A stretch of 64,000 nucleotides of DNA, from the NCBI RefSeq assembly GCF_026672375.1, contig NZ_JAPPRA010000001.1, positions 2,790,001 to 2,854,000 of the forward strand, given 5' to 3'. A program made the translations under genes and the position numbers. Below, one piece after another: positions 17,582-20,787 of the stretch; within the stretch, counting starts at the first letter, position 1; each line of letters starts with the position of its first letter. Source of the stretch: Caulobacter sp. SL161 (GTDB lineage: Bacteria > Pseudomonadota > Alphaproteobacteria > Caulobacterales > Caulobacteraceae). The notes under the pieces are model-generated. The model was not told the DNA's origin, ran no database searches, and worked only from the letters and a program-made list of their open reading frames with translations.

Positions 17582-17649
17582 GCAAAGAGCGCCTTGACGC
17601 CCCATCTTACGCATGTCATGACCCTTTCCGTAGCTTTGGAGCAAGACTC

Positions 17650-17697
17650 GTGCGCAAAACCATGATCGTACTTATGGAGCGGCCGTTCGCGGGGTGA
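17650..17697 (+). CDS. ilv leader peptide
   Basis: A 15-codon ORF starting GTG reads MRKTMIVLMERPFAG, preceded by GGAG about 9 bases upstream. An internal ATG (17662) would give MIVLMERPFAG. The Ile-Val-Leu triplet (ATC GTA CTT) is what an attenuator controlled by branched-chain aminoacyl-tRNA needs. The ORF ends 34 bases before a terminator hairpin that precedes ilvB. Confidence 0.72.
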   Translation: MRKTMIVLMERPFAG

Positions 17698-17760
17698 CCT
17701 CGAAGTCACGTCGTAGCTCGGTCGCGCGCGCAAAGGTCCTTCGGGACCTTTTTTCTTTTC
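17694..17760 (+). terminator. ilvBN attenuator (pause hairpin and terminator)
   Basis: A first stem GTGAC/GTCAC (17694-17709) begins at the leader stop codon. The terminator AAAGGTCC-TTCG-GGACCTTT (17732-17751) is followed by TTTCTTTT. GACCT in the first stem (17696-17700) can instead pair with AGGTC of the terminator arm (17734-17738), giving a possible antiterminator. Attenuation of ilvBN has, to my recollection, been reported for C. crescentus. Confidence 0.78.
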
Positions 17761-17801: not shown

Positions 17802-19607
17802 ATGACCGCCCACCAGACCATCGAGAGCCAAGCTCCGACCGACACCGCCGATCGCGCCATGACCGGCGCCGAGATCGTGGTTCGCGGTCTCGTGGACCAA
17901 GGAGTCGAGGTGCTGTTCGGCTATCCGGGCGGCGCGGTCCTGCCGATCTATGACGCGCTGTTCCACGAGCCGCGCCTGCAGCACATTCTGGTCCGCCACG
18001 AGCAGGGCGCGGCGCACGCGGCCGAGGGCTATGCGCGCTCGTCGGGCAAGCCAGGCGTGGTCCTGGTCACCTCGGGCCCCGGCGCGACCAACGCCATCAC
18101 CGGCATTATGGACGCCCTGATGGACTCGATCCCGATGGTCGTCATCACCGGCCAGGTTCCGACGCACCTGATCGGCACCGACGCCTTCCAGGAAGCCGAT
18201 ACGGTCGGCATGACCCGCTCGTGCACCAAGCACAACTATCTGGTCAAAGACGTCCGCGACCTTCCGCAGATCATCCACGAGGCGTTCAAGATCGCCACCA
18301 CCGGCCGTCCGGGGCCTGTGCTGATCGACATCCCCAAGGACGTCCAGTTCGCCAAGGGCGAGTACTTCGGTCCCGGCGAGGTCGCCTCGACCCACGCCTA
18401 TGCGCCGCGCACCAAGGGCGACGCGGGCCGGATCGCCGAGGCGGCCAGGATGATCGCCCAGGCGCGTCGGCCGATCTTCTACACCGGCGGCGGCGTCATC
18501 AATGCCGGTCCCAAGGCCAGCGCGGCCCTGCGCGAGTTCGCCGCCCTCACCGGCGCGCCGGTCACCTCTACGCTGATGGGCCTGGGCGCCTTCCCGGCGG
18601 CGGATCCGGCGTGGCTGGGCATGCTGGGCATGCACGGCACGTTCGAGGCCAACAACGCGATGCACGACTGCGACGTGATGATCTGCGTCGGGGCGCGGTT
18701 CGACGACCGGGTCACCGGGCGCCTCGACGCCTTCTCGCCGGGCAGCAAGAAGATCCACATCGATATCGACCCTTCGTCGATCAACAAGAACGTCCGCGTC
18801 GATCTGCCCATCGTCGGCGACGCCGGCTCGGTCCTGGAAGACCTGATCGCCGCCTGGAAGGCCGCGAACCTGCAGCCCAACAAGACCGCCCTGACGGACT
18901 GGTGGGCGCAGATCGACCAATGGCGCGCTCGCCAGTGCCTAGCCTACAAGCGCTCGGATTCGGTCATCAAGCCGCAGTACGCCATCGAGCGCCTGTACGA
19001 ACTGACCAAGGACAAGGACGTCTACATCACCACCGAAGTCGGCCAGCACCAGATGTGGGCCGCGCAGTTCTTCCGCTTCGAACAGCCGAACCGCTGGATG
19101 ACCTCCGGCGGTCTCGGCACCATGGGCTATGGCCTGCCCGCAGCCCTGGGCGTGCAACTGGCGCATCCGAACAGCCTGGTCGTCGACATCGCCGGCGAGG
19201 CTTCGATCCAGATGTGCATCCAGGAGCTGTCGACGGCGATCCAGTTCGATCTGCCGGTCAAGATCTTCATCCTGAACAACGAGTGGATGGGCATGGTGCG
19301 CCAATGGCAGCAGCTGCTACACGGCGAGCGCTACAGCCACTCCTACTCCGACAGCCTGCCCGACTTCGTGAAACTGGCCGAGGCCTATGGCGCGGTCGGC
19401 ATCCGCTGCGACAACCCCGCAGAGCTGGACGGCAAGATCCTGGAGATGATCAACAGCGACAAGCCGGTGATCTTCGACTGCCGCGTCGAGAAGCACGAGA
19501 ACTGCCTGCCGATGATCCCGTCGGGCAAGGCGCACAACGAAATGATCATGGGCGAGGTCGAGGATATCGGCAACGTCATCGGCGAGGACGGCGCGGGACT
19601 GGTCTAA
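17802..19607 (+). CDS. ilvB: acetolactate synthase, large (catalytic) subunit
   Basis: A 601-residue ThDP enzyme that condenses pyruvate to acetolactate, or with 2-oxobutyrate to acetohydroxybutyrate. It has the catalytic Glu in VRHEQGAAHAAEGYAR (N-terminal PYR domain), GPGATNAITG, the FAD-binding middle domain (CVGARFDDRVTGRL), and the C-terminal PP domain with GLGTMGYGLPAA. The metal-binding motif reads AGEAS ... NNEW, so the usual Asp of GD(G/A)S is Glu. A 20-residue N-terminal lead precedes the conserved part. It is controlled by the upstream attenuator and paired with ilvN 42 bases downstream. Confidence 0.96.
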   Translation: MTAHQTIESQAPTDTADRAMTGAEIVVRGLVDQGVEVLFGYPGGAVLPIYDALFHEPRLQHILVRHEQGAAHAAEGYARSSGKPGVVLVTSGPGATNAITGIMDALMDSIPMVVITGQVPTHLIGTDAFQEADTVGMTRSCTKHNYLVKDVRDLPQIIHEAFKIATTGRPGPVLIDIPKDVQFAKGEYFGPGEVASTHAYAPRTKGDAGRIAEAARMIAQARRPIFYTGGGVINAGPKASAALREFAALTGAPVTSTLMGLGAFPAADPAWLGMLGMHGTFEANNAMHDCDVMICVGARFDDRVTGRLDAFSPGSKKIHIDIDPSSINKNVRVDLPIVGDAGSVLEDLIAAWKAANLQPNKTALTDWWAQIDQWRARQCLAYKRSDSVIKPQYAIERLYELTKDKDVYITTEVGQHQMWAAQFFRFEQPNRWMTSGGLGTMGYGLPAALGVQLAHPNSLVVDIAGEASIQMCIQELSTAIQFDLPVKIFILNNEWMGMVRQWQQLLHGERYSHSYSDSLPDFVKLAEAYGAVGIRCDNPAELDGKILEMINSDKPVIFDCRVEKHENCLPMIPSGKAHNEMIMGEVEDIGNVIGEDGAGLV

Positions 19608-19649: not shown

Positions 19650-20207
19650 ATGACCGCCAACGTCCAACCCGCCCCCGCCTCGGCCTACGACCTTAGCCCC
19701 AAGGACCAGGCCGAACAGTCCGCCACCTTCGCCCTCCTCGTCGACAACGAGCCCGGCGTGCTGCACCGCGTGGTCGGACTGTTCGCCGCGCGGGGGTACA
19801 ACATCGAAAGCCTCACCGTCGCCGAGACGGACCGCAAGGCGCACACCAGCCGTATCACCGTGGTCACCCGCGGCACCCGCCATGTGCTGGACCAGATCGA
19901 GGCCCAGCTGAACAAGGTGGTGAACGTGCGCCGCGTTCACGACGTCACCCGCGACCCCAACGGGGTCGAGCGTGAGCTGGCCCTGGTGAAAGTGCGCGGC
20001 TCGGGCGTCGATCGCGTCGAGGCCCTGCGCATCGCCGAAATCTTCCGCGCCAAGCCGGTCGACACCACGCTGGAGAGCTTTGTGTTCGAGATCTCGGGCG
20101 CCCCGTCCAAGATCGACAAGTTCCTCGATCTGATGCGCCCGCTGGGCCTGGTGGAGCTGTCTCGCACCGGCGTCCTGTCCATCGAGCGCGGCTTCGAAGG
20201 CATGTAG
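19650..20207 (+). CDS. ilvN: acetolactate synthase, small regulatory subunit
   Basis: A 185-residue regulatory partner of IlvB. The N-terminal ACT domain (about 25-100) shows LVDNEPGVLHRVVGLFAARGYNIESL, the site where valine feedback is sensed in the family. The C-terminal domain follows (ALRIAEIFRAKPVD ... FEISGAPSKIDKFLDLM). The roughly 20 N-terminal residues before the ACT domain are less conserved. It is the last gene of the ilv operon. Confidence 0.95.
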   Translation: MTANVQPAPASAYDLSPKDQAEQSATFALLVDNEPGVLHRVVGLFAARGYNIESLTVAETDRKAHTSRITVVTRGTRHVLDQIEAQLNKVVNVRRVHDVTRDPNGVERELALVKVRGSGVDRVEALRIAEIFRAKPVDTTLESFVFEISGAPSKIDKFLDLMRPLGLVELSRTGVLSIERGFEGM

Positions 20208-20246
20208 CCGAGGGCGGCTGGGGAGAAACCGCCCCGCGCCCTTCCC

Positions 20247-20271
20247 TTGGCGGGATGGAGTCCCTATATTC
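20247..20271 (+). promoter_or_regulatory. probable sigma-73 promoter of ssrA
   Basis: TTGGCGG (20247-20253) and CCTATATTC (20263-20271) have the spacing of the Caulobacter housekeeping promoter (TTGACGS, 10-14 bases, GCTANAWC). They lie just ahead of the tmRNA acceptor segment. Confidence 0.6.
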
Positions 20272-20275
20272 ACTG

Positions 20276-20564
20276 GGTCCGGCTTCGGCCGAACTATGGG
20301 GATAAACGCGCACGTAATAAGCGGACTGGACCCGGGTGCGATTCCCGGCGGCTCCACCAAATCTCTCCCAAGTTATCATGGGACTGCATGGGGCCGATCA
20401 GCATCGACAGACGTGTAAAGGTGTATGCTTTCTCTCGGCTTGGCCCACCGTTTCGGGCCTTTATCTAAATGCGAACGATAACTTCGCTGAAGAGTTCGCC
20501 GTCGCTGCGTAATGCGGTGCAGGTGAATTCGCCTCTTAAGTCCTAGGGGTTCAGATCCCTAGGC
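20276..20564 (+). ncRNA. ssrA: transfer-messenger RNA, circularly permuted two-piece form
   Basis: The acceptor segment comes first. Its T arm CCGGG-TGCGATT-CCCGG (20332-20348) is followed by acceptor strand GGCTCC (20350-20355), discriminator A and encoded CCA ending at 20359. The coding segment starts at 20390 with GGGGCC, which pairs with that acceptor strand (one G-U pair). The roughly 30 bases between would be removed. The tag reading frame is GCG AAC GAT ... GCG TAA. The 5-prime end of the acceptor piece and the 3-prime end of the coding piece are approximate. The last hairpin, CCTAGGG/CCCTAGG (20542-20563), may mark the 3-prime end. The product rescues stalled ribosomes. Confidence 0.96.
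20471..20512 (+). other. tmRNA tag-peptide reading frame
   Basis: It encodes ANDNFAEEFAVAA then TAA. With the tRNA-borne Ala the full tag is the published Caulobacter AANDNFAEEFAVAA. The terminal AVAA is the ClpX-type recognition end, and the N-terminal AANDNFAEE part is the SspB-binding region. Confidence 0.97.
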
Positions 20565-20574
20565 GGGGCCCGGA

Positions 20575-20787
20575 GGGAGCCTGCCAACAGAATCCCTCCA
20601 CCTTCTCCCGACATTGCCGAGGCTCCCTCCTCTTGCTTCTTGAGGACATGGGGGAGCCTGCCAACAGAATCCCTCCACCTTCTCCCGACATTGCCGAGGC
20701 TCCCTCCTCTTGCTTCTTGAGGACATGGGGGAGCCTGCCAACAGAATCCCTCCACCTTGCCCTTCCCCGACATCGCTGAGGAATCCC
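20575..20787. repeat. 77-bp tandem repeat, about 2.7 copies
   Basis: Copies begin at 20575, 20652 and 20729. The first two are near-identical over 77 bp and the third diverges after about 45 bases. Each unit carries GGGAGCC near its start and GGCTCCC about 40 bases later, so hairpins can form within or between units. It lies between ssrA and sspB with no coding role evident. Confidence 0.9.

Follow-up and report, generated by a model that had tools for sequence, protein, structure and literature searches.

A probable ribosome-mediated attenuator upstream of ilvBN in Caulobacter and the conservation of its outer stem

The region upstream of ilvBN in the analysed stretch of Caulobacter DNA (64,000 nucleotides, hereafter the window) is almost certainly a ribosome-mediated transcription attenuator. 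The initial annotation had proposed an ilvBN attenuator with an Ile-Val-Leu leader peptide, and this identification is supported by our analysis and agrees with the attenuator published for C. crescentus ilvBN. The parts of the element, their conservation, its outer stem and the folding of the ribosome-free leader were established here, and attenuation of ilvBN as such is taken from the literature. Judged from the aligned sequences, it is the outer stem, rather than the GACCT:AGGTC switch first proposed, that evolution appears to keep.

Locus and leader peptide

The source genome (4,015,769 bases on two contigs) is of the Caulobacter vibrioides type, and the closest relatives of the ilvB in the window are found on C. 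vibrioides contigs (96–98% identity). Upstream of ilvB follow, in this order, a promoter-like TTGACG, a GGAG motif, an ORF starting with GTG, a nested hairpin and, 51 nt before ilvB, a TTCG-loop terminator with a T-rich tail; ilvN lies downstream of ilvB (Table 1). The promoter-like region presumably resembles the Caulobacter housekeeping promoter consensus. In relatives, visual comparison shows CTTGAC followed by a G-C-A-T-G-rich block at the corresponding place, and a sigma-70 scan made no call at this region. Directly 3' of ilvN, the window contains a permuted alphaproteobacterial tmRNA (20238–20602, + strand) with the tag ANDNFAEEFAVAA; in Caulobacter, tmRNA is known in a two-piece form. 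In an Rfam scan of the window the tmRNA families alone reached the cut-off, with no leader or riboswitch family (T-box or others) and no family for the ilvBN attenuator element among the hits.

Table 1. Features of the ilvBN leader region, given in positions of the window.
Feature	Position	Strand	Basis
Promoter-like region: TTGACG (17594–17599), then GTCATGAC (17615–17622)	17594–17622	+	Comparison with relatives by eye
Shine-Dalgarno-like GGAG, 8 nt 5' of the leader start codon	17638–17641	+	Sequence; TTTGGAG kept in many relatives
Putative leader peptide ORF MRKTMIVLMERPFAG, 15 codons; GTG start 17650, TGA stop 17695–17697	17650–17697	+	Start-codon exchange in relatives
Control codons ATC 17665, GTA 17668, CTT 17671 (Ile, Val, Leu)	17665–17673	+	Conservation, codon usage
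Outer (protector) stem, 5' arm GCGGCCG, within the leader ORF	17679–17685	+	Alignment, RNAalifold
Inner hairpin GTGAC (17694–17698):GTCAC (17705–17709), holding the stop codon	17694–17709	+	Folding, relatives
Outer (protector) stem, 3' arm CGGTCGC	17719–17725	+	Alignment, RNAalifold
Intrinsic terminator AAAGGTCC-TTCG-GGACCTTT, then T-rich tract	17732–17751	+	Motif scan, homologues
ilvB, acetolactate synthase large subunit	17802–19607	+	NF006581, TIGR00118 above cut-off
ilvN, acetolactate synthase small subunit	19650–20207	+	NF008864, TIGR00119 above cut-off

The sequence components named in the initial annotation were all recovered as described, and its coordinates are correct. The 15-codon ORF with consecutive ATC, GTA and CTT codons lies where it had been placed, the hairpin at the leader stop codon is present as a GTGAC:GTCAC stem that takes in the TGA, and the TTCG-loop terminator is followed by a T-rich tract. 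Read from its sequence, the ORF would provide what a class-I attenuator has in this place, a leader ahead of ilvBN whose codons specify the amino acids made by the operon. Among relatives its start codon is exchanged between GTG, ATG and TTG, and the Val-Leu codons and the reading frame are kept directly before ilvB. An in-frame ATG at 17662 was considered as the start and rejected, because relatives keep the upstream GTG, ATG or TTG together with its GGAG. The start GTGCGC (17650–17655) can also pair with the spacer GCGCGC (17726–17731) in the window genome and in some relatives, a pairing that could hide the start codon when the ribosome is absent.

The most conserved control codon is GTA, and GTACTT or GTACTC is almost invariant across the Caulobacteraceae-type loci; the Ile codon varies and is replaced in some relatives. 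In 38 long ORFs of the window with high GC3, GTA accounts for 1.1 and CTT for 5.2 of every 1000 codons, versus 42.8 for the common ATC. According to the model of Elf and Ehrenberg, attenuation is more sensitive with rare regulatory codons (PMC1183508). Rarity alone, however, explains the choice of regulatory codons less well than selective charging does.

Hairpins, terminator and the proposed antiterminator

The leader folds with −52.3 kcal/mol, compared with −39.6 ± 3.6 kcal/mol for 200 shuffled sequences (z −3.57). Its outer stem is the hairpin that overlaps the leader ORF and could be blocked by a ribosome, as in class-I attenuators. RNAalifold recovered this stem independently, without its prior specification, and in 42 sequences 96.8% of the cells are paired, with two pairs changed on both sides (e.g., CG to UA). 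The intrinsic terminator, which stands between the leader ORF and ilvB, has an uninterrupted stem of 6–9 bp in all 23 non-redundant homologues. It is convincing because of this conservation and not because of the motif scan, as the motif alone was within chance in a 1-kb scan (one found, 0.6 expected). This per-sequence test was preferred to the terminator pair counts from alignment A2, in which MAFFT had displaced the T-run of some rows and so made the counts unreliable.

The initial annotation had gone further and stated that all parts of a class-I attenuator were present, with GACCT (17696–17700) pairing alternatively with AGGTC (17734–17738). These segments do exist at the sites given and are complementary, but their pairing as a switch is supported neither by folding, nor by shuffling, nor by conservation, and the statement of completeness is likewise unsupported. 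In its classical form, with GACCT:AGGTC acting as antiterminator upon ribosome stalling, the attenuator as first drawn is improbable. In its favor, a bulge extends the duplex to GGG:CUU, and at −8.1 kcal/mol the terminator arm has no better upstream partner in this genome; the complementarity also recurs in close Caulobacter relatives. However, with the ribosome at Ile, Val or Leu and before the terminator 3' arm is made, forcing the pairing yields a fold that is worse than the free one by 11.7, 7.9 and 5.2 kcal/mol, respectively; the duplex energy lies within the shuffled range (z −1.04), and the match of five bases is not kept beyond Caulobacter sensu stricto. Because of this folding cost, the z value and the limited spread, GACCT:AGGTC is unlikely to be the general switch of the family, although it may have some role in this species.

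No dedicated antiterminator emerged from the analysis. In 23 homologues no conserved pairing with the terminator 5' arm exceeded that of shuffled sequences (mean z −0.28 ± 0.24), and upstream pairing of the terminator 3' arm gave no signal (mean z −0.07 ± 0.20, the arm being misassigned in a few homologues). Pairing of the outer 3' arm with the terminator 5' arm (GGTC:GGCC) was rejected as a candidate; it occurs in most Caulobacteraceae, is absent from the loci L013, L050 and L057, and is not clearly above shuffles.

The leader was also folded with and without a ribosome in 23 non-redundant homologues, the measure being the probability that the terminator 5' arm is paired upstream just before the 3' arm is made. 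To represent the ribosome, everything up to 13 nt from the A-site codon was removed from the RNA, and the values are accordingly equilibrium estimates and not kinetics. Without a ribosome the mean was 0.30, versus 0.57 in shuffled sequences (difference −0.28 ± 0.05); natural leaders thus appear to hold the terminator arm free. A ribosome with the Leu codon in its A site masks the outer 5' arm, and in that state the mean rose to 0.58, hardly different from shuffles (+0.055 ± 0.034). For the window sequence, the sequestered fraction was 0.00 without ribosome, 0.57 with the ribosome at Val, 0.17 at Leu and 0.08 at the stop codon. These models are most simply read as follows: the outer stem would protect the terminator, a stalled ribosome would lift this protection, and the opposing pairing would be weak and unconserved. 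Weak antiterminator pairings specific to single lineages are possible. 

The leaders of L016, L018, L021 and L023 bear on the step at which the protector stem forms. They are short (9 or 13 residues) and end with a TAG immediately 5' of the outer stem and only a few codons past the control codons, so that a stalled and a terminating ribosome would occupy nearly identical positions. Such an arrangement is compatible with the protector stem being permitted by ribosome release and not by where the ribosome stands at the stop codon.

The mechanism that we infer from this material, including where the ribosome stands, which antiterminator acts and in which direction each step works, is as follows. 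RNA polymerase would transcribe the leader, which encodes the 15-residue peptide with its Ile-Val-Leu codons. With plentiful charged Ile, Val and Leu tRNAs, the ribosome would complete the peptide and leave; the nested hairpin would then form through its outer arms, the terminator 5' arm would remain free, and the terminator would halt transcription. If these tRNAs ran short, the ribosome would stall on the rare GTA and CTT codons and mask the 5' arm of the hairpin. The downstream RNA, once freed, would bind the terminator 5' arm, weakly and in a lineage-specific way, and the polymerase would continue into ilvB.

Distribution among relatives

The Caulobacteraceae-type ilvB loci examined numbered 55 (L003–L057), and the region of leader, stem and terminator could be extracted from 53 of them in addition to the window. 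The two others are L027, where the element is visible by eye but slightly off the search pattern, and L052, which has only 80 nt of upstream sequence. By DNA similarity, 45 of 61 genomes from the genus carry the element, and a covariance model matched 73 of 119 genomes of the family (13 of 22 genera). In the genome of the window itself the covariance model found a single significant place and no second significant copy. In most ilvB loci of Hyphomonadaceae and Hyphomicrobiales the parts follow one another as in the window but differ in sequence, with leaders such as MRKLILVSGAPSTERI (L063) and MRNILIVCAAPETGRS (L062). A mosaic was observed at L031 (139–247), where the leader MRKLIIVGVRR and the stem resemble those of Bosea (L072, L081) and the sequence from the terminator through to ilvB matches L018; either the leader was recombined or the contig of this MAG is chimeric.

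Alternative readings and relation to known attenuators

A leader of this kind might sense stalling from any cause, such as slow translation or antibiotics, as much as starvation for branched-chain amino acids. Whatever the reason for a stall on the leader, the outer stem would be masked, and a similar attenuator-like leader stands before an efflux gene in another alphaproteobacterium: Atu_C8 (Rfam RF02502) scored 98.8 bits at L117 (1501–1620), directly 5' of a Bcr/CflA-type gene (1655–2869). Yet the control codons of the window leader fit the products of the operon, as is the case in published attenuators (PMC4117421), and we regard the broader sensor as very unlikely. The Atu_C8 consensus itself (AUG AUU AUU CUU GUG GUG, then a long stem and a terminator) has the look of a leader-peptide attenuator, and Atu_C8 could be the terminated product of a leader and not an independent sRNA. 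A scan of 19 more distant ilvB loci did not find it at the cut-off.

Least credible is that the short ORF arose by chance and that the terminator simply ends some upstream unit or belongs to an independent small RNA: the terminator is strong and would yield a short transcript regardless of the ORF, and the element bears a weak full-length likeness to the sRNA Atu_C8, but at 17.3 bits (E 0.42) this is far under the gathering cut-off of 50 bits, for which reason the family was also rejected as a name for the element, and both the start-codon exchange with retained frame and Val-Leu codons and the published attenuation of ilvBN (as related in PMC4117421) speak against it.

The ribosome-mediated attenuator thus preferred has close precedents. 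For C. crescentus, an ilvBN attenuator with tandem Ile and Val leader codons, and with more read-through under limitation of the cognate amino acids, is described by Schrader et al. (2014; PMC4117421) with reference to Tarleton, Malakooti and Ely (1994). It shares with the window the operon, the species group, the Ile and Val leader codons and the Rho-independent terminator, and no difference emerged in a comparison made through that citing description. A leader peptide upstream of alphaproteobacterial ilvB was already known by 2005, as a passage citing Vitreschak et al. (2004) indicates (PMC1273637); those attenuators resemble the present one in phylogenetic range and position, and were likewise found comparatively. 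Control of an ilvBN-type operon by a leader or uORF is also described, in the excerpts consulted, for Corynebacterium ilvBNC (PMC10272879, PMC11857589), which differs in belonging to another phylum and having an independently described leader, the likeness being one of description.

Given the published C. crescentus attenuator and the ilvB leader peptide, the finding is already known, and as a discovery it carries little weight, the Caulobacter ilvBN attenuator having been published since 1994. What is new lies at the level of prediction, namely that the proposed antiterminator fails and that the protector stem is conserved. As a tentative generalization, which we consider unlikely to hold in full, alphaproteobacterial ilvB attenuators might rely on a conserved protector stem, which would leave the terminator free except when masked by a stalled ribosome, and might lack a dedicated antiterminator, such that lost protection alone, together with degenerate weak pairings, would suffice for read-through. 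The comparative additions, the conserved outer stem together with the very rare GTA and the rare CTT codon, offer concrete targets for mutational tests.
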